64,000 nt of DNA from a virus. Numbering within the stretch: position 1 is the stretch's first letter; every line of letters begins with the position of its first letter. Positions 87 through 10,198 of this stretch are shown here, piece after piece. The stretch is from IMG/VR virus record IMGVR_UViG_3300027917_001949, positions 62,001-126,000 of that record; one strand, 5' to 3'. Below the pieces are notes generated by a model that was not told the DNA's origin, ran no database searches, and worked only from the letters and a program-made list of their open reading frames with translations. The position numbers and the translations under genes are program-made.

Positions 87-89
87 CAC

Positions 90-175
90 GGAGTAGTGGC
101 AGAGAGGTTTATTGCGAACGGTTGCTAACCGTTTGGGCTAACGTCCCACAGGTTCGAATCCTGTCTACTCCGCCA
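90..175 (+). tRNA. tRNA-Ser(GCT)
   Basis: Acceptor GGAGTAG/CTACTCC, anticodon loop TTGCTAA and a long class II variable arm identify a serine tRNA. CCA is encoded. It lies 3 nt after tRNA-Thr. Confidence 0.94.
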
Positions 176-184
176 AAATAGGAC

Positions 185-213
185 TTGACAAATGATTGAA
201 TTTGTGGTATAAT
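185..213 (+). promoter_or_regulatory. sigma70-type promoter TTGACA-N17-TATAAT
   Basis: A perfect -35 (185-190) and -10 (208-213) are separated by 17 nt, directly after tRNA-Ser. The ATG at 212 overlaps the -10 and is therefore unlikely to be transcribed as a start codon. Confidence 0.85.
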
Positions 214-235
214 GAGAGTAGCGATAACTGGAGAA

Positions 236-427
236 GTGTCTCCAAGTCGGTGGGGAAAAATTTATCTTGAGTGCACTCCACTCTTGGATAAATGTCTTAC
301 GTGTAGAATAAGGTTTAGATGTTATACACACAAGGAATTTGATAACTGTGGTGGGTATGTGCGAGGTCGGGATGATTGTTTGCAACCCAGAGAATTTATG
401 GAGTTTATGAATAAGTCGAATGAATGA
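236..427 (+). CDS. small RF-box protein
   Basis: Unknown 63-residue protein with the RF box near residues 20-31 (CLTCRIRFRCYT) and an additional Cys upstream at 13. The frame is open from an ATG at 212, but that ATG sits inside the -10 element, so I chose the in-frame GTG at 236, preceded closely by GGAG; the start remains uncertain. It overlaps the next small gene by 8 nt. No other domain is visible. Confidence 0.65.
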   Translation: MSPSRWGKIYLECTPLLDKCLTCRIRFRCYTHKEFDNCGGYVRGRDDCLQPREFMEFMNKSNE

Positions 428-593
428 AGTTGAAATTATATCCGAGATAAATAGAGTACAGGAAAAAATGGTATCCGCAACTGAAGAAGAGAAGGTTGTC
501 CTTCAGGAAAAATTAGCGGTACTGATGCGTCAATTGCAACCAGTCGAGAGAAGCAGAGACCAGAAAGCGTTTCTCGATGAGTGTGCTGGTTAA
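420..593 (+). CDS. 57-residue coiled-coil-like protein
   Basis: A short open frame starts at ATG 420, overlapping the end of the preceding gene, and stops at TAA 591-593, 6 nt before tRNA-Lys. The product is Glu/Lys-rich with heptad-like spacing of hydrophobic residues, consistent with a short helix or coiled coil. It has no Cys motif. Function unknown. Confidence 0.6.
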   Translation: MNEVEIISEINRVQEKMVSATEEEKVVLQEKLAVLMRQLQPVERSRDQKAFLDECAG

Positions 594-599
594 GAAGAA

Positions 600-677
600 G
601 GAAGTGTAGCTCAATTTGGTTAGAGTAGCGGTCTTTTAAACCGTTCGTTGAGAGTTCGAGTCTCTCCACTTCCACCA
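600..677 (+). tRNA. tRNA-Lys(TTT)
   Basis: Acceptor GGAAGTG/CACTTCC, anticodon loop CTTTTAA and T arm GAGAG/CTCTC form a canonical tRNA with encoded CCA. It is followed after 1 nt by a tRNA-like gene. Confidence 0.95.
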
Positions 678-678
678 T

Positions 679-780
679 GCAGGGGATAGTTTAACGGTAA
701 AATAGCTGTAAAGTTGAAAGAGTTGACTTTATTATCCTAGATAAGGAGTAGCTGTCGGTTCGAGTCCGACTTCCCTGCCA
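679..780 (+). tRNA. aberrant 102-nt tRNA-like gene
   Basis: The acceptor (GCAGGGGA/TTCCCTGC, up to 8 bp), a glycine-like D arm (GTTTAACGGTAAAAT) and a good T arm (GTCGG/CCGAC) are present. The anticodon region is expanded to about 50 nt with two internal hairpins (TAAAGT/ACTTTA and TTATC/GATAA). I cannot assign an anticodon. It could hold an insertion, be a pseudo-tRNA, or be a tRNA-like regulatory RNA. Confidence 0.6.
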
Positions 781-783
781 CAT

Positions 784-860
784 GAGGTCGTAGCTCAATT
801 AGGCAGAGCACTGGTCTCTTAAACCAGTCGTTAAGGGTTCGATTCCCTTCGACCTCACCA
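784..860 (+). tRNA. tRNA-Lys(CTT)
   Basis: Acceptor GAGGTCG/CGACCTC, anticodon stem CTGGT/ACCAG with loop CTCTTAA, and encoded CCA give a canonical lysine tRNA, the second lysine isoacceptor in the array. Confidence 0.95.
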
Positions 861-862
861 AT

Positions 863-919
863 GGGCTAGTGAGTTAATGGTAACGGTGCACAATATGGGT
901 CCGATTCCCATCTAGTCCA
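863..919 (+). tRNA. truncated tRNA-like gene lacking an anticodon arm
   Basis: Acceptor GGGCTAG/CTAGTCC and T arm ATGGG/CCCAT are intact, but only about 27 nt separate them, so no canonical anticodon arm can form. It resembles a minihelix (acceptor plus T arm). It sits exactly where a tRNA would punctuate two ORFs, and the next ORF starts 1 nt after its end. Confidence 0.6.
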
Positions 920-920
920 C

Positions 921-1028
921 ATGGGCATCGATAGGACAATCCCTACGTTGTTCAATAGGCATAAGCAGTTCCTATTTTTACAGAAATGTCTTTTGTGTTT
1001 TACTGCTCGCCGATTAATGGGGCTATAG
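921..1028 (+). CDS. 35-residue ORF bounded by two tRNAs
   Basis: The frame starts with an ATG immediately after the truncated tRNA and stops at TAG 1026-1028, which is T8-A9-G10 of the following tRNA-Glu. The predicted peptide ends in a Cys-rich stretch (KCLLCFTARR) reminiscent of a degenerate RF box. The exact fit between the tRNAs argues for coding, but the length makes it tentative. Confidence 0.45.
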   Translation: MGIDRTIPTLFNRHKQFLFLQKCLLCFTARRLMGL

Positions 1029-1092
1029 TCTAATGGCAGGACACTACCCCCTCAAGGTAGCATTGTCGGTTCGAATCCGTCTAGCCCTACCA
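1019..1092 (+). tRNA. tRNA-Glu(CTC)
   Basis: Acceptor GGGGCTA/TAGCCCT, anticodon stem CTACC/GGTAG and loop CCCTCAA give CTC. The final A of the encoded CCA (1092) is also the A of the next ATG. Its T8-A9-G10 is the stop codon of the upstream small ORF. Confidence 0.92.
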
Positions 1093-1430
1093 TGAAAAAA
1101 GTAGAAACTTTTACGGCACGAATATACTTAGGACTCAAGGAAGGATATAATGGTCGTGTTCGTGGGTTTGATGAGGTTAGAAAGTGTCTGGAAGAGTATG
1201 TGAAGGTTAATCCCTTCTGCTTTACTCTTGAGCATACTATCTTTATCCACACGGATGGCACAGAACCTGGTGCAGTGATTGGGATTATTAACTATCCACG
1301 TTTCCCCAGAACTAGACCAGAGCTAAAGAAGATAGCTTTAAAAGTGGCAGAAGACCTGCGTGTGTTGTTCGTGCAAAACAGAGTATCTGTAGTGTTTACA
1401 GATGAAACGGTAATGCTTGGTGACGAGTAG
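1092..1430 (+). CDS. 112-residue protein of unknown function, start fused to tRNA CCA
   Basis: The ATG shares its A with the CCA end of tRNA-Glu, so there is no room for a ribosome-binding site on a processed transcript. The product has alternating hydrophobic segments compatible with a small alpha/beta fold (residues 55-105) and no RF box. It is followed directly (TAG-ATG) by an RF-box gene. I do not recognise it. Confidence 0.8.
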   Translation: MKKVETFTARIYLGLKEGYNGRVRGFDEVRKCLEEYVKVNPFCFTLEHTIFIHTDGTEPGAVIGIINYPRFPRTRPELKKIALKVAEDLRVLFVQNRVSVVFTDETVMLGDE

Positions 1431-1673
1431 ATGCCGAACACTCGCTACTTGAAACTAATTTGTGTATCCTGTCACAAGCGTAAGAAGGATTGTACATGTC
1501 ACTCTCATTACGCAAAGTATCATGGTGCAAAATATGGGTATACGTGGTGTGTTGATGTTGGTGTTGGCGCATATTGTGATGAATGCGTAAATAGGTTTTA
1601 TTGTTTTACTCATCGAGGATGGTTTGGGACAGATTTACCAGACTATAAATCGTATTACGGAGTATTGAATTAG
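1431..1673 (+). CDS. Cys-rich RF-box protein
   Basis: 80 residues with an N-terminal Cys cluster (CVSC, CTCH around 11-23) and an RF box at 49-60 (CDECVNRFYCFT). Start ATG abuts the previous stop. The stop TAG (1671-1673) overlaps the first base of the next tRNA. Metal binding is likely from the Cys spacing; function unknown. Confidence 0.85.
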   Translation: MPNTRYLKLICVSCHKRKKDCTCHSHYAKYHGAKYGYTWCVDVGVGAYCDECVNRFYCFTHRGWFGTDLPDYKSYYGVLN

Positions 1674-1768
1674 GGAGCGTAGCACAATTTGGCAGTGCAG
1701 CAGTCTTATAAGCTGTTTAGGGTCTGATACACCCGAGGTTACAGGTTCGAGTCCTGTCGCTCCTACCA
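1673..1768 (+). tRNA. class II tRNA with anticodon TAT
   Basis: Acceptor GGGAGCG/CGCTCCT, D arm GCAC/GTGC, anticodon loop CTTATAA (TAT, isoleucine AUA), T arm ACAGG/CCTGT, CCA encoded. It has a 24-nt variable region with a GGGT/ACCC hairpin, which is unexpected for an isoleucine tRNA. The amino acid identity is therefore uncertain. Confidence 0.8.
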
Positions 1769-1772
1769 ACAA

Positions 1773-1825
1773 ACTCGTCACGCTTTTAATAATGTGGTCA
1801 TTACTTTAAGCGCAACCTGACGAGT
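1773..1825 (+). ncRNA. nested hairpin RNA between tRNAs
   Basis: An 8-bp outer stem ACTCGTCA (1773-1780)/TGACGAGT (1818-1825) encloses CGCTT/AAGCG and a terminal TAATG-tggt-CATTA hairpin. The element fills the space between two tRNAs and encodes no credible ORF. Confidence 0.6.
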
Positions 1826-1831
1826 GTTTAT

Positions 1832-1909
1832 CCCCCTGTAGCTCAATTGGATTTAGAGCACGACGCTACGAACGTCGGTTAGTTGCGGGTTCGAGTCCTG
1901 TCAGGGGGT
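1832..1909 (+). tRNA. tRNA-Arg(ACG)
   Basis: Acceptor CCCCCTG/CAGGGGG, anticodon stem CGACG/CGTCG with loop CTACGAA. No CCA is encoded (TCGATG follows). The next ORF starts 2 nt after the discriminator position. Confidence 0.92.
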
Positions 1910-1911
1910 CG

Positions 1912-2064
1912 ATGATTAAGAATTGGTGTAGAGGATACAGAGAGTATTCGAAAGAGATACCAATGTGTAAGTTCTACGGAACAACTGAACATCCAGATTT
2001 TAAGCCAACATGTTCGAAGAAATTGAAAGCAGGGGTTCACTGCCATGTTAAACCCGATAAGTGA
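1912..2064 (+). CDS. 50-residue four-Cys protein
   Basis: ATG lies 2 nt after tRNA-Arg. Cys residues at 6, 19, 34 and 44 in a basic 50-residue peptide suggest a small metal-binding or disulfide protein. No RF box. TGA stop at 2062-2064 is 14 nt before the next tRNA. Function unknown. Confidence 0.6.
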   Translation: MIKNWCRGYREYSKEIPMCKFYGTTEHPDFKPTCSKKLKAGVHCHVKPDK

Positions 2065-2078
2065 TTTCCTTAGCGAAT

Positions 2079-2154
2079 GCTCCCGTAGCTGAATTGGAAC
2101 AGCAACTCCCTTCTAAGGAGAAGTATAAGGGTTCGAGTCCCTTCGGGAGTACCA
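2079..2154 (+). tRNA. tRNA-Arg(TCT)
   Basis: Acceptor GCTCCCG/CGGGAGT, anticodon stem ACTCC/GGAGA with loop CTTCTAA, CCA encoded at 2152-2154 and immediately followed by an ATG. Confidence 0.95.
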
Positions 2155-2376
2155 ATGAATACTCAATTAACCGGAGTTCTGATTGAGCACACCAGTCACA
2201 ATAACAACATTGACGAGGTTATTGCGGCAATGAAGGGTGTGCGACTTGATGAGTATCTTGGTTACGTTGCACCAAATTATGTGATAACATTTCGAATGGT
2301 TTTGTTTCTTTGTAAACATGCTGGTACTAACTGTGATGACTGTGAACTACGTTTCAAATGTTGGACATTAAAATAA
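2155..2376 (+). CDS. RF-box protein, C-terminal box
   Basis: 73 residues. The ATG directly follows the tRNA CCA. The RF box (CDDCELRFKCWT, 60-71) forms the C-terminus, with an additional Cys at 53. The N-terminal 50 residues show no known domain. The TAA stop precedes a promoter that starts at 2380. Confidence 0.87.
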   Translation: MNTQLTGVLIEHTSHNNNIDEVIAAMKGVRLDEYLGYVAPNYVITFRMVLFLCKHAGTNCDDCELRFKCWTLK

Positions 2377-2379
2377 GAC

Positions 2380-2408
2380 TTGACAAAGTCGAAAAAATAT
2401 GATATAAT
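2380..2408 (+). promoter_or_regulatory. sigma70-type promoter TTGACA-N17-TATAAT
   Basis: Perfect -35 at 2380-2385 and -10 at 2403-2408 with a 17-nt spacer, placed between an ORF stop and a small ORF whose ATG (2420) lies only 11 nt after the -10. Confidence 0.87.
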
Positions 2409-2419
2409 AGAAGGAGAGC

Positions 2420-2530
2420 ATGGAGAAGATTTTAGAAGTATTTTGTAGAGTTTTTGGTCATGACCATACATACAATCATGGTGAACAGATTTGTAGTGTA
2501 TGCGGTAATGTCAAAGAAGACGACGAGTAG
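2420..2530 (+). CDS. 36-residue zinc-knuckle protein (DUF1660-like)
   Basis: A short protein with the pattern of small phage DUF1660-type proteins: a hydrophobic start with F-C-x-F-G-H, then CxxCG (CSVCG) near residues 25-29, so one zinc-ribbon half plus His/Cys. AAGGAGAG precedes the ATG. It is the first gene after the promoter and ends 9 nt before a tRNA-like gene. Family assignment is from motif memory. Confidence 0.65.
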   Translation: MEKILEVFCRVFGHDHTYNHGEQICSVCGNVKEDDE

Positions 2531-2539
2531 TCGTCAAAT

Positions 2540-2619
2540 CTCGCTGTAGTCGGGGGAGTTTCCTAAACTCTTAGCCGTAAGAGGTATCTGTAAATGAGGG
2601 TTCAAGTCCCTCCAGCGAG
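2540..2619 (+). tRNA. tRNA-like gene apparently lacking a D arm
   Basis: Acceptor CTCGCTG/CAGCGAG and T arm GAGGG/CCCTC are perfect. The best anticodon arm is GGAGT-TTCCTAA-ACTCT, giving CCT (Arg AGG), which leaves only about 7 nt where a D arm should be and a long variable region (CTCTTA-TAAGAG can also pair). No CCA is encoded. A degenerate or D-armless tRNA is the most direct reading. Confidence 0.55.
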
Positions 2620-2621
2620 TC

Positions 2622-2692
2622 GGGGACGAGTACAGCCGATGAAAAGGTATTCAAAGGTAATTGCTGTATGACTTGCAATACTGGTACTCCCC
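2622..2692 (+). ncRNA. structured RNA element ending CCCCAACATG
   Basis: Outer stem GGGG...GAGTAC/GTACTC...CCC with inner GTATT/AATAC and ATTGC/GCAAT stems. A second element at 9174-9244 has the same outer GGGGA/CCCC closure and ends in the same CCCCAACATG before a tRNA. No ORF fits. Confidence 0.55.
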
Positions 2693-2697
2693 AACAT

Positions 2698-2774
2698 GCG
2701 GGTATGATGCAATTGGCAGACATGCTACGCTTAGAACGTAGATTTTGCAGGTTCGAGTCCTGCTACCCGCACCA
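2698..2774 (+). tRNA. tRNA-Leu(TAG) with short variable loop
   Basis: Leucine-type D arm (ATGCAATTGGCAGACAT), anticodon stem CTACG/CGTAG with loop CTTAGAA, acceptor GCGGGTA/TACCCGC, CCA encoded. The variable loop is only ATTTT, whereas bacterial leucine tRNAs normally have a long class II arm. Confidence 0.88.
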
Positions 2775-2894
2775 TACTAATATACTGAGGGAATCTGAAA
2801 AAGATGAGACTGGAAGTTGATGGTTACTATCCCAGTCATGGGTGTCCGAGAAGCGGCAATGGTGGAGCGTCCATAGTAGGTGTATTAGTACTAC

Positions 2895-2970
2895 GGTGCA
2901 TTGGTGTTAATGGTGAGCATACTACCCTGTCAAGGTTGAGGGAGGGGTTCGTGTCCCCTATGCACCGCCA
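2895..2970 (+). tRNA. tRNA-Asp(GTC)
   Basis: Acceptor GGTGCAT/ATGCACC, anticodon loop CTGTCAA, T arm AGGGG/CCCCT, G73 and encoded CCA. The anticodon stem has one mismatch. The stretch 2775-2894 before it holds no feature that I can support. Confidence 0.88.
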
Positions 2971-3246
2971 ATGAATAAGATTGTCCGTTATCGGATTCTT
3001 TTCAGTGATGAGTTTAAAGAAGGTGTGATACAATGTAGCACTACGCTATGCGGTGACTGTCCGGTCAGGTTTAAATGCTGGACAAGTCGTGTGGTCAGTG
3101 ACTACTTTTCTATCGCTTTCGAGGTAACACCGTATGAGCTTTTCTCGCTACAGTGGTTTAAGTTTGGAGAAAAGTTTAACGGAATGAAATATGAAACGGA
3201 CACTAAAAAACGATTGGTAGAGTGGCGACGTAGCCAAGAGGTTTAA
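2971..3246 (+). CDS. RF-box protein, N-terminal box, stop inside tRNA-Cys
   Basis: 91 residues. ATG directly follows the CCA of tRNA-Asp. The full Cys pattern C-x4-C-x2-C-x5-C is at 22-36, with the RF box at 27-38 (CGDCPVRFKCWT). The last 8 codons lie inside tRNA-Cys and the TAA stop is in its D loop, so tRNA release would remove the stop from the message. Function unknown. Confidence 0.87.
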   Translation: MNKIVRYRILFSDEFKEGVIQCSTTLCGDCPVRFKCWTSRVVSDYFSIAFEVTPYELFSLQWFKFGEKFNGMKYETDTKKRLVEWRRSQEV

Positions 3247-3297
3247 GGCGGCTGTCTGCAAAACAGCTTTTCATGGGTTCGAATCCCATCGTCGCCT
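3224..3297 (+). tRNA. tRNA-Cys(GCA)
   Basis: Acceptor GGCGACG/CGTCGCC, anticodon stem GCTGT/ACAGC with loop CTGCAAA. The 3' end reads TCA, so CCA is not fully encoded. Its 5' third is also coding sequence. Confidence 0.94.
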
Positions 3298-3299
3298 CA

Positions 3300-3647
3300 A
3301 TGAGTCCTAACGAATTATGTTTGGAGATTGCGAAAGCAATCCACGTACCATCAAGGTATATAGAGTTTGATACGAGTAAATATATCTATAAGTGTACGTG
3401 CGGTCTCTGTGACGAAGCTTGGACACATGAGATAGTGCGTGAAGCATTTGTTGCAGAAGATGAGGTTGAACAAAGACGGCTTCAAGGTTTGATGTGGTAT
3501 TACCACCGAACTAGAATTGGGGGTAACATATTCATTTTAAGTAATATGATGTGTTATGAACTTGGTCGCAGGTCTGGTTTACTGCAAGCATGTAACGACT
3601 GTACTCATAGGTACAAATGTATCACTAATAGTTTTATTCTGGTGTAG
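3300..3647 (+). CDS. RF-box protein, stop is T8-A9-G10 of tRNA-Asn
   Basis: 115 residues from the ATG 2 nt after tRNA-Cys. An earlier in-frame ATG lies inside the tRNA and is rejected. A Cys pair region at 32-37 (CTCGLC) may bind metal. The RF box at 98-109 (CNDCTHRYKCIT) has Tyr in place of Phe. The stop TAG is tRNA-Asn positions 8-10. Confidence 0.85.
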   Translation: MSPNELCLEIAKAIHVPSRYIEFDTSKYIYKCTCGLCDEAWTHEIVREAFVAEDEVEQRRLQGLMWYYHRTRIGGNIFILSNMMCYELGRRSGLLQACNDCTHRYKCITNSFILV

Positions 3648-3712
3648 TACAAAGGTAGTGCACTCGGCTGTTAACCGAGGATATAGTGGTTCGAGTCCAC
3701 TCACCAGAGCCA
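3638..3712 (+). tRNA. tRNA-Asn(GTT)
   Basis: Acceptor TCTGGTG/CACCAGA, anticodon loop CTGTTAA, T arm AGTGG/CCACT, G73 and encoded CCA immediately followed by ATG. Confidence 0.95.
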
Positions 3713-3994
3713 ATGTTAATATTTGAAGTAGTACGAGATAGAGAGTTAAAGGTAGCATACGTTAACAGACTTGATTGCGGTGCTCGTGATTGTAATCAAT
3801 GTATCGGACGCTTCATTTGTTTTACCCAAAAAACTGGGTATTTCATGGGTGAGAAAGGTCTTATAATGGAGGAAGAACAGGCTAGACGATTAAGACACCA
3901 TCCATCTATCGAAGTAAACATGTTTTACGATGGGCAGAGACACGCAGTGGGTAAGAAATGGGACGGGGATAACTATGTCCCAGAGTTTGAATAA
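3713..3994 (+). CDS. RF-box protein
   Basis: 93 residues from the ATG abutting the tRNA-Asn CCA. The RF box at 27-38 (CNQCIGRFICFT) has its fourth Cys at 22. The C-terminal half is charged with no recognisable domain. The TAA stop ends exactly before the first base of tRNA-Glu(TTC). Confidence 0.87.
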   Translation: MLIFEVVRDRELKVAYVNRLDCGARDCNQCIGRFICFTQKTGYFMGEKGLIMEEEQARRLRHHPSIEVNMFYDGQRHAVGKKWDGDNYVPEFE

Positions 3995-4072
3995 GGCAGC
4001 ATGGACTAATCTGGTTATGTCACCACTCTTTCAAAGTGGAGATTACGGGTTCAAATCCCGTTGCTGCTACCA
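3995..4072 (+). tRNA. tRNA-Glu(TTC)
   Basis: Acceptor GGCAGCA/TGCTGCT, anticodon stem CCACT/AGTGG with loop CTTTCAA, T arm ACGGG/CCCGT, CCA encoded. Confidence 0.94.
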
Positions 4073-4081
4073 TGATAGTAT

Positions 4082-4157
4082 AGCGGGGTGGAGCAGTGGT
4101 TAGCTCGACTGGCTCATAACCAGTAGGTCGAGGGTTCAAATCCCTCCCCCGCCACCA
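4082..4157 (+). tRNA. initiator-like tRNA-fMet(CAT)
   Basis: Anticodon loop CTCATAA. The body follows bacterial initiator tRNA closely (GGGGTGGAGCAG, AGCTCG, AGGTCG), with A1 facing C72 unpaired, the hallmark that permits formylation and blocks elongation. The anticodon stem reads CTGG/CCAG rather than the usual three G-C pairs. CCA is encoded and followed by an ATG. Confidence 0.9.
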
Positions 4158-4532
4158 ATGGAATATTGCACTTATAATAGGATATGTGCTAATAAGATAA
4201 GTTGTTTGGAGTGGACCGATGTCGGTACTTGTGATTATTATGGTCACTACCGACGGGTAACACCACCAGAGAAAACGGTTTATCACATGCGGAGTCAGGA
4301 TTGTCAACACCTTACTCGTACCATCACTCCAGAGCATCAGAAGTTATGCGAAGATTGTGACCATAGATTTTACTGTTGGACTTCTGAATACTGGGGTAAT
4401 GATATGTATGAGCAACATAAGCATTATATCTATGTTAAGAGTACTGCAATAGCACGAGCACGTAATATCGCTCGTCAAGAGAAGGAAGCACGGTTGCTTA
4501 GTATTGAAACATATGGATTGACAAGTGCGTAA
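4158..4532 (+). CDS. Cys-rich RF-box protein
   Basis: 124 residues, ATG directly after the tRNA-fMet CCA. Five Cys in the first 50 residues (4, 10, 16, 25, 49) and an RF box at 64-75 (CEDCDHRFYCWT) suggest two metal sites. The C-terminal third is a basic, Ala/Arg/Glu-rich probable helix. It overlaps the next gene by 8 nt. Confidence 0.87.
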   Translation: MEYCTYNRICANKISCLEWTDVGTCDYYGHYRRVTPPEKTVYHMRSQDCQHLTRTITPEHQKLCEDCDHRFYCWTSEYWGNDMYEQHKHYIYVKSTAIARARNIARQEKEARLLSIETYGLTSA

Positions 4533-4827
4533 AGGTATCAAGATACCGAAATTAAGTGTACGTTTATGTAATAACTGCGGCTTAATCATGGTCGTCCAGG
4601 GTGACAGTCAATGGCTTTCGTGTCGTAGATGTCGTTCGAAACACCTGAAATTCTTGTGTTCCACTGAAGAGAATGATATTACAACAGGTATGATGGAAGA
4701 GTGTAATACCTGTAAGCATCGATTTAGATGTATTACTCAACGGTCACGTGCATATGTATACACTCCTATTTATCGAAACTCCGAGGGTGTGAGACGGAAA
4801 ATTGGACAACGTTCAAGACCACGATGA
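4525..4827 (+). CDS. zinc-ribbon plus RF-box protein
   Basis: 100 residues from GTG 4525. A classical zinc ribbon (C15/C18 and C33/C36) is followed by an RF box at 60-71 (CNTCKHRFRCIT) and a basic tail. The overlap with the preceding gene suggests translational coupling. A nucleic-acid role is possible from the ribbon and basic tail, but not shown. Confidence 0.83.
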   Translation: MRKGIKIPKLSVRLCNNCGLIMVVQGDSQWLSCRRCRSKHLKFLCSTEENDITTGMMEECNTCKHRFRCITQRSRAYVYTPIYRNSEGVRRKIGQRSRPR

Positions 4828-4833
4828 TTTTAT

Positions 4834-4905
4834 TTCCCCGTAGTCTAATTGGTATGACTGCTGGCTCTGAACCAGTCAATTCAGGTTCGAATCCTGACGG
4901 GGGAA
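4834..4905 (+). tRNA. tRNA-Gln(CTG)
   Basis: Acceptor TTCCCCG/CGGGGGA, anticodon stem GCTGG/CCAGT with loop CTCTGAA, T arm TCAGG/CCTGA. The 3' end is ACAG, so CCA is not encoded. The next ATG is 3 nt away. Confidence 0.92.
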
Positions 4906-4908
4906 CAG

Positions 4909-5181
4909 ATGAAGCGAGTATTTAAGCTAAATAAAAGCGGTAATAATACTTACATATGTATGGGTGGTGGATGTGATAGATGTTGTATGAGATTTAAGTG
5001 CTTTTCTGTTAGTAAGTATGAGTATTTTGTCGTTGACTGGCATCTGATACACACCAATGAAAGCCCGACAAAATACTTGGAACGGCAGACTCATAGCAGA
5101 GTGTACGTGAAAGGAAGTAAACGATATAACAAAGCATTGTTAGACATGGGAATATCACCATTGTTGTTTACAACCTATTAG
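4909..5181 (+). CDS. RF-box protein
   Basis: 90 residues starting 3 nt after tRNA-Gln. C17-x4-C22-x2-C25-x5-C31 with RF box CDRCCMRFKCFS (22-33); Ser replaces the final Thr. The remaining 55 residues are basic. The stop TAG shares its G with the first base of tRNA-Leu(AAG). Confidence 0.86.
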   Translation: MKRVFKLNKSGNNTYICMGGGCDRCCMRFKCFSVSKYEYFVVDWHLIHTNESPTKYLERQTHSRVYVKGSKRYNKALLDMGISPLLFTTY

Positions 5182-5255
5182 GCGTTGTAACCCAACCAGG
5201 CAGAGGTAACTGGCTAAGAACCAGTGAAGTGCAGGTTCGAATCCTGTCAACGCCA
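5181..5255 (+). tRNA. tRNA-Leu(AAG) with short variable loop
   Basis: Acceptor GGCGTTG/CAACGCC, anticodon stem ACTGG/CCAGT with loop CTAAGAA, variable loop GAAGT only. It ends ACA, so CCA is not fully encoded, and the next ATG starts 1 nt after the discriminator. Confidence 0.88.
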
Positions 5256-5256
5256 C

Positions 5257-5487
5257 ATGAGGAATCCAGATAGAATACCTTTAATATTGGAAACCATATA
5301 TGAGATATGGATAGAAAACCCAGATTTAAGGTTGATGCAACTTTTAGGTAATTGTTTTTCTCCGGCAGATAATTACCACCGTGAGGATGACGTATTACTT
5401 GAACGATTGCGACAAGTATATGGTAAGTCGAGTGAACGCTCTACGAGAGAGGAAAGTCCGAACACCGCAGAGCAGGATGCAGGGTAA
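5257..5487 (+). CDS. small conserved phage/bacterial protein overlapping rnpB
   Basis: 76 residues. The first 55 (R-N-P-D-R-I-P ... N-P-D-L-R-L-x-Q-L-L, then an acidic E-D-D motif) match a widespread small-protein family that I know from phages and bacteria (R-D-P-x-R-I start). Function unknown. The last ~22 codons run into the RNase P RNA gene, including its conserved GAGGAAAGTCCG, so the C-terminal tail is dictated by the RNA. Confidence 0.8.
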   Translation: MRNPDRIPLILETIYEIWIENPDLRLMQLLGNCFSPADNYHREDDVLLERLRQVYGKSSERSTREESPNTAEQDAG

Positions 5488-5820
5488 CACCCTGGCAGAG
5501 TAATCTGACGACTAGTGCAACAGAGACGAGTCAGTAGTTCGAGGTATGGGGTATTGGTAGCTCATATCCCTGTGGAATAGTATGGTTGTTTCTCTATATA
5601 GACACGTCATCGTACTGTGGAGGATGGCTACTTTCAGTAGGACTTACTGGGTGAAACGGGTAAACTCCATCCGGTGCAACCCCAAGCAGAAAGCAAATCG
5701 GCGATTCCGTTTAAGACCTGCTCGGTCAAGCTTTCGGGTCGGGGGCAAGGAGTTTAATGGTAACATTAAACCAAGATAAATGTTCACATAGTACAGAATT
5801 CGGCTTATAGATTTACCATA
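5419..5820 (+). ncRNA. rnpB: RNase P RNA, bacterial type A
   Basis: Catalytic RNA that cleaves tRNA 5' leaders. All conserved blocks are present in order: GAGGAAAGTCCG (CR I), AGTGCAACAGAGA (CR II/III), GGTAAACTCCATCCGGTGCAA (CR IV region) and ACAGAATTCGGCTTAT (CR V). P1 is a 10-bp helix TATGGTAAGT/ATTTACCATA, P2 is GTGAAC/GTTCAC, and P4 shows CCGAA/TTCGG where E. coli has CCGGG/CCCGG, a compensatory change. It lies among the tRNAs it would process. No rnpA protein gene is seen. Confidence 0.96.
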
Positions 5821-5824
5821 TTAA

Positions 5825-5900
5825 GTGTCCGAAGTGTAACGGTTGTGCACGGGAGATTGTGGCTCTCTCTGAGTGGGTTCGATTCCCACCGGACACTCCA
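5825..5900 (+). tRNA. tRNA-His(GTG), atypical end
   Basis: Acceptor GTGTCCG/CGGACAC, anticodon loop TTGTGGC, T arm GTGGG/CCCAC. The discriminator is T73 and the preceding base is A, so an A(-1):U73 pair would replace the near-universal G(-1):C73 histidine identity element. CCA is encoded and its A is the A of the next ATG. Confidence 0.9.
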
Positions 5901-6124
5901 TGTACCTTATCGCAAATAACTATCGATATTCCTACAGTAGAGAATATCCATACTTTAACGGTGACCTTGTCGTATGTTGGCAAGATATACCATGTGAGGA
6001 ATGTAAAGATAGGTTTTATTGCTTTACCCATGTAACTCACGTAAACAGTCCTTATTTTAGTTTAAGTGATGAACTTAGAAGGAGACCGAGTAGTGCAGAC
6101 TTATCTCAGAAGCAAGATACGTAA
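5900..6124 (+). CDS. RF-box protein
   Basis: 74 residues; the ATG shares its A with the tRNA-His CCA (an upstream in-frame ATG inside the tRNA is rejected). RF box at 32-43 (CEECKDRFYCFT), preceded by a Tyr-rich stretch and C26. The 3' end overlaps the panD gene by 32 nt and contains its ribosome-binding site. Confidence 0.85.
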   Translation: MYLIANNYRYSYSREYPYFNGDLVVCWQDIPCEECKDRFYCFTHVTHVNSPYFSLSDELRRRPSSADLSQKQDT

Positions 6125-6440
6125 TTTAGTAGTTACTGATGTTAACGTCAGTTACGATGGAAGTATTAGTTTAGACCCAGAATTAATGGAAATGGCTGGC
6201 ATTTCCCCGTTCGAACAAGTTCATGTGCTTAATGTTACGAATGGTGAACGGTTCATAACATATGCAATTAAGGGTGAAAAGGATGAGGTTTGTGTGAATG
6301 GTGCGGCAGCTCATTTGGTGGAGTTTAACGATGTATTAATGGTTCTTACCTATGAGATTGTTGACCATGGTGTGGTAAGACATTACGCTAATCACCCAAC
6401 TATAGTCGATGCCGAAGCACGGCACAAGTATTTGATATAA
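6093..6440 (+). CDS. panD: aspartate 1-decarboxylase
   Basis: Pyruvoyl enzyme converting L-aspartate to beta-alanine for pantothenate and coenzyme A. The 115-residue length is near the family norm (~126). SKI near 7-9, the self-cleavage site YDGS (Gly23-Ser24, the Ser becoming the pyruvoyl group), NGERF with the substrate-binding Arg, TYAI, and NGAAAHL are all present. I chose GTG 6093 because GAAGGAG lies 8 nt upstream and it aligns with PanD N-termini; earlier ATG/GTG codons would add residues. It is the only metabolic enzyme inside the tRNA array. Confidence 0.93.
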   Translation: MQTYLRSKIRNLVVTDVNVSYDGSISLDPELMEMAGISPFEQVHVLNVTNGERFITYAIKGEKDEVCVNGAAAHLVEFNDVLMVLTYEIVDHGVVRHYANHPTIVDAEARHKYLI

Positions 6441-6442
6441 TT

Positions 6443-6518
6443 GCGGATGAAATTCATTTGGTTGAATGCTGCGTTGCCAACGCAGATGTAGCGGGTTCGA
6501 ATCCCGCCATCCGCTCCA
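6443..6518 (+). tRNA. tRNA-Gly(GCC)
   Basis: Acceptor GCGGATG/CATCCGC, anticodon stem CTGCG/CGCAG with loop TTGCCAA, T arm GCGGG/CCCGC, T73 and encoded CCA. Confidence 0.95.
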
Positions 6519-6519
6519 C

Positions 6520-6593
6520 GCTAGAGTGATGCAACTGGCAGACATGTCCGTCTCAAAAACGGGATTTTGAGGGTTCGAATCCCTCCTCTAGCA
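6520..6593 (+). tRNA. tRNA-Leu(CAA) with short variable loop
   Basis: Leucine-type D arm (ATGCAACTGGCAGACAT), anticodon loop CTCAAAA, variable loop ATTTT, acceptor GCTAGAG/CTCTAGC. The 3' end is ACA; the next ATG starts at 6595. Confidence 0.88.
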
Positions 6594-6594
6594 C

Positions 6595-6687
6595 ATGAAA
6601 ACAAATCGATTAGATTTCGTTTTATTGATATTTTTTATAGCTATGTTTGTAGCATTGGCATTTTTGGGAGTGTCGGTTAATGGATAA
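6595..6687 (+). CDS. 30-residue single-span membrane peptide
   Basis: ATG starts 1 nt after the tRNA-Leu discriminator. Residues 8-26 are uninterrupted hydrophobic (LLIFF, FVALAFLG) after a short polar N-terminus, so a single transmembrane helix is expected. The TAA stop lies in the D loop of tRNA-Trp. Too short for family assignment. Confidence 0.6.
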   Translation: MKTNRLDFVLLIFFIAMFVALAFLGVSVNG

Positions 6688-6740
6688 ACCAACGGATTCC
6701 AAACCCGTGACTGAGAGTTCGAATCTTTCCACTCCCGCCA
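6666..6740 (+). tRNA. tRNA-Trp(CCA)
   Basis: Acceptor GGGAGTG/CACTCCC, anticodon loop TTCCAAA, G73 as usual for tryptophan, CCA encoded. The first 22 nt also encode the end of the membrane peptide. Confidence 0.93.
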
Positions 6741-6748
6741 AATCTATC

Positions 6749-6940
6749 GTGGTAGATACTGGTATACTTGGAATGGTAGGGAACATTGGCAGTTTCACAG
6801 TTAGATGTTTCGGTGACAACTGTGAGGAATGTTTTTTGCGGTTTAAATGCTATACTACTCGTTCTGATGAGATACATATTCATATGGATGAGTGGTTTAA
6901 AGTGAAACCGAAAATCGTTTATACACGAGTAGAGGTATGA
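6749..6940 (+). CDS. RF-box protein
   Basis: The frame is open from inside tRNA-Trp; the first plausible start after the tRNA is GTG 6749, giving 63 residues. C20-x4-C25-x2-C28-x5-C34 with RF box CEECFLRFKCYT (25-36). The start is uncertain since no ribosome-binding site precedes it. Its 3' end overlaps the next gene by 4 nt. Confidence 0.75.
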   Translation: MVDTGILGMVGNIGSFTVRCFGDNCEECFLRFKCYTTRSDEIHIHMDEWFKVKPKIVYTRVEV

Positions 6941-7245
6941 TGCGTGGTAAAAGATTACGTGATGCGACTATAAAAGCTGAACATACTTTCGAGAAATATC
7001 AGGGCTATAATCCACGGGATGAGAAGCTATTAACGGCTCGTTGGATACCTTGGACAGAGGACGAAATAGCACGTACCGTAGGAATTTTTAGAAAAACTAA
7101 AGTACCATGTTCATGTGTAATGTGTGGTAATCCAAGAAGATACTTTGGAGAATTGACATTCGGAGAGATAAGACAACATTTAGATGCTGATGCACAATGT
7201 GAAGAAGTAGATTGGTATCATAAAAAAGTAAGATGGTCGGTGTAG
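6937..7245 (+). CDS. CSCxxCGNPRR small protein
   Basis: 102 residues. The signature CSCVMCGNPRR (about residues 58-68) followed by F-G-E is shared with a widespread family of small uncharacterised bacterial proteins that I recognise by motif. Three Cys suggest metal binding. ATGA-type overlap with the previous gene. Stop TAG equals T8-A9-G10 of tRNA-Leu(TAA). Confidence 0.85.
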   Translation: MMRGKRLRDATIKAEHTFEKYQGYNPRDEKLLTARWIPWTEDEIARTVGIFRKTKVPCSCVMCGNPRRYFGELTFGEIRQHLDADAQCEEVDWYHKKVRWSV

Positions 7246-7312
7246 CCCAACTGGCAGAGGTGATAGGCTTAAACCCTATTCAGTGTGAGTTCGAATCTCA
7301 CCACCGACACCA
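7236..7312 (+). tRNA. tRNA-Leu(TAA) with short variable loop
   Basis: Acceptor GTCGGTG/CACCGAC, D arm GCC..GGT, anticodon stem ATAGG/CCTAT with loop CTTAAAC, variable loop TCAGT, CCA encoded. Fourth leucine tRNA of class I shape in this array. Confidence 0.9.
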
Positions 7313-7328
7313 AGCCATATACTGGGTA

Positions 7329-7357
7329 TTGACAAATTGCAGTAACTGTGGTATAAT
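7329..7357 (+). promoter_or_regulatory. sigma70-type promoter TTGACA-N17-TATAAT
   Basis: Perfect -35 (7329-7334) and -10 (7352-7357) with 17-nt spacing. Start expected near 7364, so the first product is the structured RNA and then tRNA-Phe. Confidence 0.88.
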
Positions 7358-7365
7358 GGTATTGT

Positions 7366-7502
7366 AACCTGATGAGGGAGATGCCTAACTAGCCGTAGTG
7401 AAGGGCAGATGCGGGAAAATCTAACCGGTGGTTCTAGGGGATTAGCACCCATGCTAGATAGTTAAAAGTCCATCGTGGAAGGTAGACACCCTGACTCAGG
7501 TT
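7366..7502 (+). ncRNA. promoter-driven structured RNA upstream of tRNA-Phe
   Basis: No ORF of useful length is present. A 7-bp perfect closing stem AACCTGA (7366-7372)/TCAGGTT (7496-7502) spans 137 nt; AGGG/CCCT continues it, and TCTAG...CTAGA and GCC...GGC hairpins lie inside. It starts at the expected +1 of its own promoter. It does not show the conserved cores of tmRNA, SRP RNA, RNase P RNA or a hammerhead that I can recognise. Confidence 0.55.
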
Positions 7503-7507
7503 CGCAA

Positions 7508-7584
7508 GCTGACTTAGCTCATTCTGGTAGAGCGACAGGTTGAAGCCCTGTGCGTAGGTGGTTCGATTCCGCCAGTCAGCACCA
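7508..7584 (+). tRNA. tRNA-Phe(GAA)
   Basis: Acceptor GCTGACT/AGTCAGC, anticodon stem ACAGG/CCTGT with loop TTGAAGC, T arm GGTGG/CCGCC, CCA encoded and its A shared with the next ATG. Confidence 0.94.
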
Positions 7585-7745
7585 TGGAAATTAATTGTTA
7601 TGAATGTCCCTTAACTCATGCGTGTAGTGTAAGAGCACGTAAGGAAGTGGGACGAGTGTGGGATGGTATAATTGAATCTTGGGAACTTAATGATTGTCCA
7701 CTCTACAGATTACTTCAAATAATGGAAGCAATTAAGTATCTTTAA
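7584..7745 (+). CDS. 53-residue Cys-motif protein (divergent RF box)
   Basis: ATG shares its A with the tRNA-Phe CCA. C5-x2-C8-x5-C14 (CYECPLTHAC) has the spacing of the RF box but lacks the Arg-Phe core; a fourth Cys lies at 38 (DCPLY). The TAA stop is 1 nt before tRNA-Tyr. Cluster or zinc binding is plausible. Confidence 0.7.
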   Translation: MEINCYECPLTHACSVRARKEVGRVWDGIIESWELNDCPLYRLLQIMEAIKYL

Positions 7746-7746
7746 T

Positions 7747-7833
7747 GGCGTAGCGGCAACGTGGGAGAGTTGCCCTGGTCTGTAAAACCAGTGTCCTTGG
7801 GCTTAGTAGGTTCGAATCCTATCTGCGCCACCA
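7747..7833 (+). tRNA. tRNA-Tyr(GTA)
   Basis: Acceptor GGCGTAG/CTGCGCC, anticodon stem CTGGT/ACCAG with loop CTGTAAA, class II variable arm, CCA encoded. Confidence 0.94.
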
Positions 7834-7834
7834 A

Positions 7835-8074
7835 ATGTTAAAAGAATTACGTCAAGCTAAAAAATTATACTGTTATCATTGTGATGCATTGTATGAACCA
7901 GTATCATTTTTAACGTGTCCGTCATGCGGTACACCACTTGTTACGTGTTGGTGGGGATTGATTTACGGAATGAATAAGGACGAAATTCATAAATTATGTC
8001 CTGATTGTAAGAATAGATTCTGGTGTTGGACACAGCGACCAGAACTACCCACAATGAGTGGGACATACATGTAA
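7835..8074 (+). CDS. zinc-ribbon plus RF-box protein
   Basis: 79 residues, ATG 1 nt after the tRNA-Tyr CCA. Zinc ribbon C13/C16 and C28/C31, then RF box at 55-66 (CPDCKNRFWCWT). The stop is 3 nt before tRNA-Ala. The pairing of a ribbon with the box recurs at 4525-4827 and on the other strand. Confidence 0.86.
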   Translation: MLKELRQAKKLYCYHCDALYEPVSFLTCPSCGTPLVTCWWGLIYGMNKDEIHKLCPDCKNRFWCWTQRPELPTMSGTYM

Positions 8075-8077
8075 AAT

Positions 8078-8151
8078 GGGGGTTTAGTTCAGTGGGAGAA
8101 CACTTCCCTTGCAAGGAAGGAAGACGAGTTCGAGTCTCGTAACCTCCACCA
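8078..8151 (+). tRNA. tRNA-Ala(TGC)
   Basis: Acceptor GGGGGTT/AACCTCC with a G-T pair, anticodon stem CTTCC/GGAAG with loop CTTGCAA, T arm ACGAG/CTCGT, CCA encoded. Confidence 0.94.
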
Positions 8152-8153
8152 AG

Positions 8154-8648
8154 ATGATTAAACCAAAACTTGGTGAAATTAGAACTGGTAAAGAACTTGG
8201 ATATATATCAAGGAACAAGCATATTGGTCATGCTTGTGAAATATGCGGCAAATTACGTTGGGTTCGTTTGATAGGTGGTAAACCACAGCGAACAAAATGC
8301 GAAGCACATAACGGTGGTAACTATGTAGATAGCAGTGGTAATGCTGCTGGTAATTTTAAACATGGTTTTCGTAATACTAGATTGTATCGAGTATGGAAAG
8401 GGATGAAACAGCGGTGTTATTTACCAACATTTGATTCGTATAAAACGTATGGTGCTCGTGGTATTAAAGTTTGTGACGAGTGGCATGAATTTATTCCATT
8501 CAAAGATTGGGCATTATCACACGGATATTCAGATGACCTATGTATAGACAGAATTGATAATGATGGGAATTATGAGCCGGATAACTGTCAATTTCTTACT
8601 CGAAGTGAAAATAGTCGTAAACAAAAATTAGATAGACTCGGTGTGTAG
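8154..8648 (+). CDS. HNH/AP2-type phage endonuclease-like protein
   Basis: 164 residues from ATG 8154. An N-terminal CxxC zinc half-site is followed by R-L-Y-R-V-W-K-G-M-K-Q-R-C, Y-G-A-R-G-I-K-V-C-D-E-W and a C-terminal I-D-R-I-D-N-D-G-N-Y-E-P-D-N-C block, characteristic of phage HNH/AP2-like proteins related to homing endonucleases. It may be a selfish gene within the tRNA array. Stop TAG equals tRNA-Pro T8-A9-G10. Confidence 0.85.
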   Translation: MIKPKLGEIRTGKELGYISRNKHIGHACEICGKLRWVRLIGGKPQRTKCEAHNGGNYVDSSGNAAGNFKHGFRNTRLYRVWKGMKQRCYLPTFDSYKTYGARGIKVCDEWHEFIPFKDWALSHGYSDDLCIDRIDNDGNYEPDNCQFLTRSENSRKQKLDRLGV

Positions 8649-8715
8649 CACAGCTTGGTAGTGCGCCTGATTTGGGGTCAGGAAGTCGTAGGTTCAAATC
8701 CTATCACACCGACCA
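8639..8715 (+). tRNA. tRNA-Pro(TGG)
   Basis: Acceptor CGGTGTG/CACACCG, anticodon stem CCTGA/TCAGG with loop TTTGGGG, T arm GTAGG/CCTAT, CCA encoded. Confidence 0.94.
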
Positions 8716-8806
8716 ATACATATCATCTTGGAAGGATATTGTATTCATTTGGAGTATAAGCTTCAAGATTATATTTAGATACGATGGACGATACCAAGAT
8801 ATTGTC
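8716..8806 (+). ncRNA. structured spacer RNA between two tRNAs
   Basis: A long-range stem ATCTTGG (8725-8731)/CCAAGAT (8794-8800) encloses a 62-nt AT-rich segment. No convincing ORF. Comparable in position and size to the elements at 1773, 2622 and 9174. Confidence 0.4.
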
Positions 8807-8811
8807 CTCGG

Positions 8812-8888
8812 CAGGGTGTACGTCAGCGGACAAGACTACCTGTTTTGGATACAGGAGGACGGTGGTTCGAATCCACCCACCCTGACCA
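8812..8888 (+). tRNA. second tRNA-Pro-like gene (anticodon TGG)
   Basis: Acceptor CAGGGTG/CACCCTG, anticodon stem CCTGT/ACAGG with loop TTTGGAT, T arm GGTGG/CCACC, CCA encoded. The D loop (AGCGGACAA) is atypical. The body is unlike the first tRNA-Pro, so it is not a recent duplicate. Confidence 0.88.
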
Positions 8889-8898
8889 GAGGTGAGGA

Positions 8899-9117
8899 AT
8901 GATAAAGCATAGTATTAGTAACGAGATTATTCCAGAAGAGCAGTGGGGTGACATTGGTGGTTATTATACTCTCACTAATGATGAATTAGAAGAGTGGAGA
9001 CATAATCAAACACGTGAACAACGTAAACTTGCGTACTGGGTAAAAACAGTCGCACGTGGAAAACCGCTACTTACACTTGGTACTAATCCCGTTTTAAATG
9101 CCACTGAAGCTCATTAG
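8899..9117 (+). CDS. 72-residue protein of unknown function
   Basis: One of the few genes in this array with a normal leader: GAGGTGAGG precedes ATG 8899. The product is charged and probably helical, rich in Glu/Arg at 28-50, with no Cys motif. Stop TAG lies in the D loop of tRNA-Thr(TGT), so the last six codons are tRNA sequence. Confidence 0.75.
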   Translation: MIKHSISNEIIPEEQWGDIGGYYTLTNDELEEWRHNQTREQRKLAYWVKTVARGKPLLTLGTNPVLNATEAH

Positions 9118-9172
9118 GATGAGCGGTGGTTTTGTAAACCACAGGTAACGGGTTCGAATCCTGTCAGTGGCT
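9100..9172 (+). tRNA. tRNA-Thr(TGT)
   Basis: Acceptor GCCACTG/CAGTGGC, D arm GCTC/GAGC, anticodon stem GTGGT/ACCAC with loop TTTGTAA. No CCA encoded (TCGG follows). Confidence 0.94.
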
Positions 9173-9173
9173 C

Positions 9174-9244
9174 GGGGAGAAAGAGTTATGAAGCATGAGC
9201 GATGCTGTAGCTCATTTTGGCATCATAACTAACAGCCGTTCCCC
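9174..9244 (+). ncRNA. structured RNA element ending CCCCAACATG
   Basis: Strong stem AGTTATGA (9184-9191)/TCATAACT (9223-9230), inner GATGC/GCATC or ATGAGC/GCTCAT alternatives, outer GGGGA/TCCCC. Same flanks and same CCCCAACATG end as the element at 2622-2692. Part of its interior (TGTAGCTCATTTTGGCA) resembles a tRNA D arm, so it may derive from a tRNA. Confidence 0.55.
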
Positions 9245-9249
9245 AACAT

Positions 9250-9321
9250 GCTACCGAAGCTCAAAGGTTGAGCATCCGCTTCGTAAGCGGGAGATTGTGA
9301 GTTCGAGTCTCACCGGTAGCT
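9250..9321 (+). tRNA. tRNA-Thr(CGT)
   Basis: Acceptor GCTACCG/CGGTAGC, D arm GCTC/GAGC, anticodon loop TTCGTAA, T arm GTGAG/CTCAC. The end is TCA, so CCA is incomplete. The next ATG is 1 nt away. Confidence 0.93.
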
Positions 9322-9322
9322 C

Positions 9323-9769
9323 ATGAAGATACATGAAATAAAAGATAACTATAGTGGTTGGGATGATGTGGCGACCGTCGGTGTCTTTTATTATGATGGG
9401 ACATTCGATAATCTGAAAGACAAGACTCTTGTTATAACTACATTCGGTGAGTTATCGAGTCTCCGATATTATGGATTACCATGTAAAGCAATCTTACGAA
9501 TACGGCACGCACCGAAGCAACCATTTGAAACAACCTTTATTTTAGAAAGTGATAAGGTGGGTAAGGAAATGGCAAGAGACCAAGTTAAATTCGAAACGGA
9601 TTTAGAAACTTTGAAGTCGTTAGCTGACATAGCTGTTGACATCGAAAAGATACAACATGGTGATGTCGAGAACGTAACAGAAGCTGGTTTTGTTAGGGGT
9701 GAAGTTTACGTCAAGTGGACTCGTGGTGATACGGTAGAAATAGCATTACCCGCAAAACCACATGGCTAA
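9323..9769 (+). CDS. 148-residue protein of unknown function
   Basis: ATG starts 1 nt after tRNA-Thr(CGT). Predicted alternating beta strands and an acidic helical segment (95-120); one Cys only, no RF box. The longest unknown protein in the array. No family recognised. Confidence 0.8.
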   Translation: MKIHEIKDNYSGWDDVATVGVFYYDGTFDNLKDKTLVITTFGELSSLRYYGLPCKAILRIRHAPKQPFETTFILESDKVGKEMARDQVKFETDLETLKSLADIAVDIEKIQHGDVENVTEAGFVRGEVYVKWTRGDTVEIALPAKPHG

Positions 9770-9780
9770 ATTTTTATAAT

Positions 9781-9866
9781 GGAAGGTGTCCGGCTGGACG
9801 AGGAAGCTGTCCTGAAAACAGTGGGGCTGTAAAGTCTTAGGGGTTCGAGTCCTCTACCTTCCGCCA
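9781..9866 (+). tRNA. tRNA-Ser(TGA)
   Basis: Acceptor GGAAGGT/ACCTTCC, class II variable arm, anticodon stem GCTGT/ACAGT with loop CCTGAAA giving TGA. Position 33 reads C rather than the near-universal T. CCA encoded and followed by ATG. Confidence 0.9.
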
Positions 9867-10082
9867 ATGAGATACGTTGTTACAAGACACGGTAATGTAC
9901 TTGAAGCATTCTGGTGTTATTACACTAAATGTGAGACATGTCCTAGTAGATTTAAGTGTCTCACGAGTGCTATCGCTATAGTTGATGACTGCATAAATTT
10001 AACAGGTAGCGAAGTGCGAAAGAAAATAAATGATATTATAGAGAAGCACGGTTTACATGTTGAACATCTTGCAGAAATGTAA
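9867..10082 (+). CDS. RF-box protein
   Basis: 71 residues, ATG abutting the tRNA-Ser CCA. C17-x4-C22-x2-C25-x5-C31 with RF box CETCPSRFKCLT (22-33), then a helical C-terminal tail. The TAA ends exactly before tRNA-Gln(TTG). Last protein gene of the array. Confidence 0.87.
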   Translation: MRYVVTRHGNVLEAFWCYYTKCETCPSRFKCLTSAIAIVDDCINLTGSEVRKKINDIIEKHGLHVEHLAEM

Positions 10083-10160
10083 TGCCGAGTAGTCTAAAAC
10101 GGTTTGGACGACTGGCTTTGACCCAGTAGGCTGAAGGTTCGACTCCTTCCTCGGCAACCA
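10083..10160 (+). tRNA. tRNA-Gln(TTG)
   Basis: Acceptor TGCCGAG/CTCGGCA, anticodon stem ACTGG/CCAGT with loop CTTTGAC, T arm GAAGG/CCTTC, CCA encoded. Final tRNA of the array. Confidence 0.94.
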
Positions 10161-10170
10161 GGCAGAATTA

Positions 10171-10198
10171 ACCCCACGCTTTCACGTGGGGTTTTTTA
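10171..10198 (+). terminator. rho-independent terminator closing the tRNA array
   Basis: Stem CCCCACG/CGTGGGG with a 6-nt loop followed by TTTTTT (10192-10197). The opposite-strand operon ends at 10218, so transcription converges here; the hairpin may serve both strands. Confidence 0.92.

Follow-up and report, generated by a model that had tools for sequence, protein, structure and literature searches.

The phage genome studied here, from a family of uncultured phages with near-complete tRNA sets, carries a tRNA array in which many small open reading frames (ORFs) begin directly at the 3' ends of tRNAs. We analysed a 64,000-nucleotide stretch of it (the window), positions 62001-126000 of a 152,753-bp IMG/VR virus record that encodes a tail tape-measure protein, a portal-like protein, a DNA polymerase and a ribonucleotide reductase. 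ATG codons abut the tRNAs, the abutting starts generally lack Shine-Dalgarno (SD) sequences and are almost exclusively ATG, the layout is preserved among related phages, and the phage has genes for an RNase P RNA (P RNA) and a CCA-adding enzyme. Judged from the sequence, a tRNA-punctuation mechanism is likely in these phages. In the phage version that we favour, with moderate confidence, tRNA 3' processing would free leaderless or near-leaderless mRNA.

ORFs start at the 3' ends of tRNAs

A preliminary description of the window listed about 15 ORFs starting 0-5 nt after a tRNA. All 15 do so, each with an ATG 0-3 nt past the last tRNA base, and two further ORFs of the same kind were found at window position 1912 and at L002:19368 (L002 coordinates refer to a stretch reaching upstream of the window, where the latter ORF lies). 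The description also had several ORFs sharing the A of CCA with their ATG, which holds for three (1092, 5900 and 7584). One listed ORF, 6595, encodes only 30 aa. The junctions in the window are:

1019-1430, plus strand: tRNA-Glu(CUC) and ORF 1092-1430; the A of CCA is the A of ATG
1832-2064, plus strand: tRNA-Arg(ACG) and ORF 1912-2064, offset 2; SD-like tRNA 3' end
2079-2376, plus strand: tRNA-Arg(UCU) and ORF 2155-2376, CCA/ATG, with the motif CxxCxxRFKCWT; SD-like tRNA 3' end
2895-3246, plus strand: tRNA-Asp and ORF 2971-3246, CCA/ATG; the ORF ends 23 nt into tRNA-Cys
3224-3647, plus strand: tRNA-Cys and ORF 3300-3647; 10-nt overlap, the stop being U8A9G10 of tRNA-Asn
3638-3994, plus strand: tRNA-Asn and ORF 3713-3994, CCA/ATG; the ORF end adjoins tRNA-Glu
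4082-4532, plus strand: tRNA-Met and ORF 4158-4532, CCA/ATG
4834-5181, plus strand: tRNA-Gln(CUG) and ORF 4909-5181; SD-like tRNA 3' end
5181-5487, plus strand: tRNA-Leu(AAG) and ORF 5257-5487, with a sub-threshold DUF1040 match; it runs 68 nt into the P RNA
5825-6124, plus strand: tRNA-His and ORF 5900-6124, CCATG
6520-6687, plus strand: tRNA-Leu(CAA) and the 30-aa ORF 6595-6687; 22-nt overlap with tRNA-Trp
7508-7745, plus strand: tRNA-Phe and ORF 7584-7745, CCATG
7747-8074, plus strand: tRNA-Tyr and ORF 7835-8074; an ortholog lies behind tRNA-Tyr in relative G001 (CCATG)
8078-8648, plus strand: tRNA-Ala and ORF 8154-8648, HNH-like by inspection and with no Pfam match; the stop is U8A9G10 of tRNA-Pro
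9250-9769, plus strand: tRNA-Thr(CGU), CCA not encoded, and ORF 9323-9769, CTC/ATG
9781-10082, plus strand: tRNA-Ser(UGA), overlooked by ARAGORN, and ORF 9867-10082, CCA/ATG

Among window tRNAs followed by at least 90 nt, 14 of 22 carry a junction ATG-ORF of at least 35 aa, compared to 3.5% at random positions. Pooling six related arrays, junction ATG-ORFs at offset 0-5 were found behind 59 of the 125 tRNAs with room for one, against 3.9 expected (p = 3e-54, a value that overstates independence since the arrays are related). Counts of ATG by offset, from 0 upwards, were 17, 18, 12, 15, 5, 4, 3, 2 and so on, with 17 tRNAs having ATG at offset 0, and the distance from the discriminator base to the ATG was 1-5 nt in 57/59 junctions. 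In most window ORFs, and in 40/59 over the six arrays, no possible start lies between the preceding stop codon and the junction ATG; the other 19 have a possible in-frame start farther upstream. That tRNA-rich phages in general share the layout was also considered and rejected, because in unrelated viral tRNA arrays, mostly with a P RNA, junction ORFs follow 10 of 220 tRNAs, near the background of about 3% and with no excess. The layout thus belongs to the phage clade found here.

Abutting starts lack Shine-Dalgarno sequences and use ATG

The preliminary description stated that no ribosome-binding site separates tRNA and start codon. None does, although at 1912, 2155 and 4909 the tRNA's own 3' acceptor strand is G-rich and could serve as an SD. 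The anti-SD energy of the 17 abutting starts of this phage had a median of +0.5 kcal/mol, with 3/17 at or below -6. Among its other ORFs, 51% reached this level when the first start was scored and 70% with the best start, as did 8.5% of random positions. Two starts away from tRNAs provide a contrast within the array, at -8.8 and -11.2 kcal/mol, respectively:

6093-6440, plus strand: PanD aspartate decarboxylase, GTG start, strong SD
8812-9117, plus strand: tRNA-Pro and ORF 8899-9117, which starts 11 nt downstream with a strong SD

Across the six arrays, SD energies of -5 or lower were found at 8/59 abutting starts versus 23/30 ORFs starting 9-40 nt downstream of a tRNA (Fisher, 5.5e-9). Start codon use at offset 0-5 was skewed, with 59 ATG against a single GTG/TTG, whereas by codon chance GTG/TTG would be expected to outnumber ATG. 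Leaderless initiation favours an AUG located at the RNA 5' end or close to it, and is poor with GUG or UUG (PMC9031893).

The layout is kept in relatives while the ORFs change

Relatives were found by an RNase P core motif (G001) and by the protein motif CxxCxxRFxCWT (G037, G038, G039 and G040). G042 is near-identical to G039, giving seven records in all and the six distinct arrays that were pooled. The relatives' tRNA arrays occupy a single strand and have a similar tRNA order. In G037-G040, picked without regard to junctions, 30/74 tRNAs were followed by junction ATG-ORFs. At 18 isoacceptors an abutting ORF is present in two or more phages, and in four phages each at Glu(CUC), His and Met; most such ORFs look unrelated to one another.

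Some are orthologous. One family lies behind tRNA-Asn in G038 and G040 (offset +3) and behind tRNA-Met in G039 (offset 0); all pairs align from residue 1, with changes at the three codon positions of 6, 4, 22 and 47, 29, 73. The Trp-linked ORFs of G001 and G039 likewise align from residue 1 (changes 9, 6, 16). Alignment from the first residue together with third-position-biased changes shows that the starts are correctly placed and that the proteins are under selection.

Searches further afield returned little. GenBank phages yielded short tRNA matches only, queries with ORF 9323, the DNA polymerase and the Tyr-linked ORF returned one contig and no relatives beyond, and no earlier description of the tRNA-junction layout was found in the literature searched (mainly open papers, preprints excluded).

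Genes for an RNase P RNA and a CCA-adding enzyme

Two genes for tRNA maturation lie in or beside the array; the genes that follow the array are on the other strand and include the second of the two:

5420-5823, plus strand: RNase P RNA, class A (RF00010, 196.2 bits, E 5.3e-62), inside the array, 1 nt before tRNA-His
11468-12826, minus strand: tRNA nucleotidyltransferase of the CCA-adding type (PF01743, E 1.8e-35), convergent with the array

The P RNA score compares to a gathering threshold of 100 and to scores of 188.2 and 176 in relatives. In G001 the P RNA (L130:535-894) directly adjoins tRNA-Gln (L130:460-534). When RNase P cuts this tRNA, or tRNA-His in the window, the same cleavage would generate the P RNA 3' end. 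RF00010 matches at E <= 0.001 were found in 34/35 other viral records, 20 of them above the Rfam cut-off; they lie mostly within same-strand tRNA arrays, in records of up to 463 kb whose viral status is as catalogued. The window P RNA had no blastn match among GenBank phages, and the open papers searched contained no report of an RNase P RNA encoded by a phage. The CCA-adding enzyme gene is present in 7/7 clade records. A or U occupies position -1 in 138/160 tRNAs (86%). An Rfam scan gave no ribozyme match except RNase P, and whether Rfam holds a theta-ribozyme model was left unchecked. The window also encodes an RtcB-type RNA ligase (PF01139, E 3e-67; 54342-55520, minus strand), a possible tRNA repair enzyme.

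The array is divided by internal promoters

The preliminary description placed an operon at 860-9867. An array of tRNAs and ORFs is indeed present there, but it extends further on both sides and is not one simple operon, because three perfect sigma-70 promoters lie inside it:

L002:~18980 to window 10193, plus strand: tRNA/ORF array of about 11 kb, from a promoter about 1 kb before the window start to the terminator (window part 1-10196)
185-213, plus strand: sigma-70 promoter, perfect consensus, behind tRNA-Ser(GCU)
2380-2408, plus strand: sigma-70 promoter, perfect consensus
7329-7357, plus strand: sigma-70 promoter, perfect consensus, behind tRNA-Leu(UAA), at the same site in relatives
10170-10193, plus strand: intrinsic terminator closing the array

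At least four promoters and one terminator are predicted from the sequence in 11 kb. The internal promoters after Ser(GCU) and Leu(UAA) are kept in place among relatives and divide the array. At some consensus promoters an ATG lies just 6-11 nt past the -10 box (genome position 133329, plus strand; window 2408), so that genes made leaderless by transcription start may also exist in this phage. The non-coding segment 7358-7507 was examined as a structured RNA and gave no signal (z -0.48).

The array holds more than 30 tRNAs, and all 20 amino acids are covered by phage tRNAs once those at L002:13405 and 13787 are counted. ARAGORN overlooked array tRNAs at about 680-780, 9781-9866 and 10083-10160. 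Two tRNA-like elements are unusual: one of about 60 nt at 861-919 seemingly lacks an anticodon arm, and one of about 100 nt at 679-780 has an oversized middle (Rfam 37.7 bits).

A proposed mechanism and its alternatives

We propose that the few sigma-70 promoters would give long array precursors in which the tRNAs fold and are excised. A cut at the tRNA 3' end, most likely just after the discriminator base, would free the downstream RNA with its AUG 1-5 nt from the new 5' end, to be translated leaderlessly; the cleavage site, the enzymes and the leaderless translation are what we infer here. The phage CCA-adding enzyme would then restore CCA. RNase P, probably with the phage P RNA, would make the tRNA 5' ends and thereby the 3' ends of upstream messages, and genes far enough behind a tRNA would rely on an ordinary SD. 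For ORFs that share their A with CCA, one molecule cannot give both a CCA-ended tRNA and an AUG-led mRNA unless the cut precedes CCA. Cutting after the discriminator base would yield near-leaderless mRNA everywhere, including at these ORFs and behind tRNAs with no encoded CCA.

The same layout could reflect compaction only, with ORFs packed against tRNAs and uncut precursors translated via weak SD-like tRNA 3' ends, reinitiation or tRNA unfolding. Phage genes are tightly packed, ORF ends abut or overlap tRNAs just as ORF starts do, and this explanation would draw on the SD-like 3' strands at 8/59 junctions and on the 19/59 ORFs with a possible upstream start. SD-dependent packing, however, predicts an SD and a spacing of at least about 9 nt; the class of this kind comprises 30 ORFs and is separate from a larger, SD-less class that peaks at 0-3 nt. 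Moreover, upstream of 40/59 junction ORFs a stop is reached without any alternative in-frame start, GTG and TTG are nearly absent, and a folded tRNA immediately upstream would be expected to impede the 30S subunit sterically and block its loading at the AUG. We therefore consider compaction by itself unlikely. That the junction ORFs are mostly not genes, the open frames being mere spacer, is very improbable: most lack Pfam matches and many are shorter than 100 aa, but this would leave unaccounted for the orthologs with common first residues and third-position-biased substitution, the recurring CxxCxxRFxCxT motif and the ATG excess itself.

A further possibility is that tRNA ends are recombination hot spots at whose 3' boundaries ORF cassettes were inserted, ATG adjacency being a by-product of insertion. 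Relatives keep the tRNA order while the ORFs turn over, a homing-type HNH-like ORF is present, and one ortholog moved from tRNA-Asn to tRNA-Met. By itself, though, insertion neither sets the ATG at 0-3 nt nor removes the SD, and we give it a low probability as the explanation. It is compatible with tRNA punctuation, since a cassette with a leaderless start could be expressed at whatever site it reached.

Several observations weigh against tRNA punctuation as proposed here. Besides the relatedness of the pooled arrays, many bacterial RNase Z enzymes act poorly on precursors that carry CCA. The seven records yielded no gene for RNase Z or for the RNase P protein, so that host proteins must help; a motif search for the host in bacterial genomes gave three scattered, uninformative matches. 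In G037, G039 and G042 no P RNA was detected, so that it is not required for the junction layout. Twenty-seven junction ORFs have their end no more than 60 nt from a following tRNA; 14 of them overlap that tRNA, and RNase P cutting first would strip their stop codons and leave nonstop messages. These ORFs would then have to be translated ahead of the cut or from uncut RNA, unless nonstop messages can be tolerated. Five overlaps among the junction ORFs of the six arrays are exactly 10 nt long. Two window ORFs that were inspected, 3300-3647 and 8154-8648, take their stop codon from U8-A9-G10 of the following tRNA. A one-base overlap of the stop with the next tRNA occurs in ORFs 1431-1673 and 4909-5181; most overlaps are longer. 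Stops supplied by U8-A9-G10 lie at 3638-3647, 7236-7245 and 8639-8648.

These points also bear on the suggestion in the preliminary description that the element follows mitochondrial logic, with tRNA processing and mRNA 5'-end formation as one event. The anatomy agrees with such logic in its abutting ATGs, missing SDs, AUG-only starts, persistence while ORFs change, P RNA and CCA-adding enzyme. A single event is too simple, because the RNase P cut sets the tRNA 5' end and, with it, the 3' terminus of the upstream mRNA; an mRNA 5' end calls for a second endonucleolytic cut, at the tRNA 3' end. The overlapping ORF ends, the internal promoters and the absence of a detected phage RNase Z argue in the same direction.

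Comparison with known systems

tRNA punctuation is established in animal mitochondria (Ojala, Montoya and Attardi 1981, as cited in passages of PMC8003010). As there, the phage ORFs lie between tRNAs with scarcely any spacer and overlap them at both ends, some stop codons appear to be completed by the next tRNA, and the mRNAs would start at or near the AUG without an SD. In contrast, the phage array is DNA of a phage in a presumed bacterial cell, has bacterial promoters and a terminator, mixes in SD-led genes and mostly encodes CCA, and its cleavage is predicted. The phage array thus appears to work like mitochondrial tRNA punctuation, and we do not claim membership of that system.

In bacteria, E. 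coli thrT-tufB is a tRNA-mRNA co-transcript whose mRNA, downstream of the tRNA, has a leader and an SD. The phage array would similarly release mRNA downstream of a tRNA, but its ATGs abut tRNAs without an SD, and do so dozens of times. Gut phages with theta ribozymes process their own tRNA 3' trailers and are enriched for tRNA nucleotidyltransferase (PMC10879173); here, coding sequence fills the place of such a ribozyme. Bacterial leaderless genes (PMC9031893, PMC4633059) share the missing SD, the AUG-only starts and a predicted 5' end that lies at the AUG or close to it, whereas the 5' end in the phage would arise by RNA processing rather than transcription start.

Since tRNA punctuation is already known from mitochondria, an independent phage origin, if true, would demonstrate that in bacteria, too, the excision of tRNAs can be taken up as a way of making mRNA. 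It would also couple the supply of messages in infected cells to the maturation of tRNAs, provide a large natural set of processing-generated leaderless messages and offer a possible role for phage-encoded RNase P RNA. More tentatively, at somewhat under even probability, these phages may be a lineage with mitochondrion-like expression, using tRNAs as processing signals for leaderless mRNAs and equipped with their own P RNA and CCA-adding enzyme; the array would then be a plug-in rack in which an ATG at the end of a tRNA is enough for any ORF to be expressed, no ribosome-binding site being needed.

Other features of the record

The motif CxxCxxRFxC[WFYL]T occurs in 47 copies on both strands of the 152.7-kb record, for example at window positions 292, 2331, 22478, 39392 and 60487. 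Fourteen copies are in the array, and the motif is abundant in relatives. From its sequence, it is possibly a proliferated zinc-binding tag. Seven ORFs at 22997-27203 (minus strand) have the common N-terminus M[KR][IV]RxGFVSNSSSSSF. The record also encodes a DruA-like protein at L002:15018-16019 (PF14236, E 6e-25), and the phage PanD (PF02261, E 1e-33) sits within the tRNA array.

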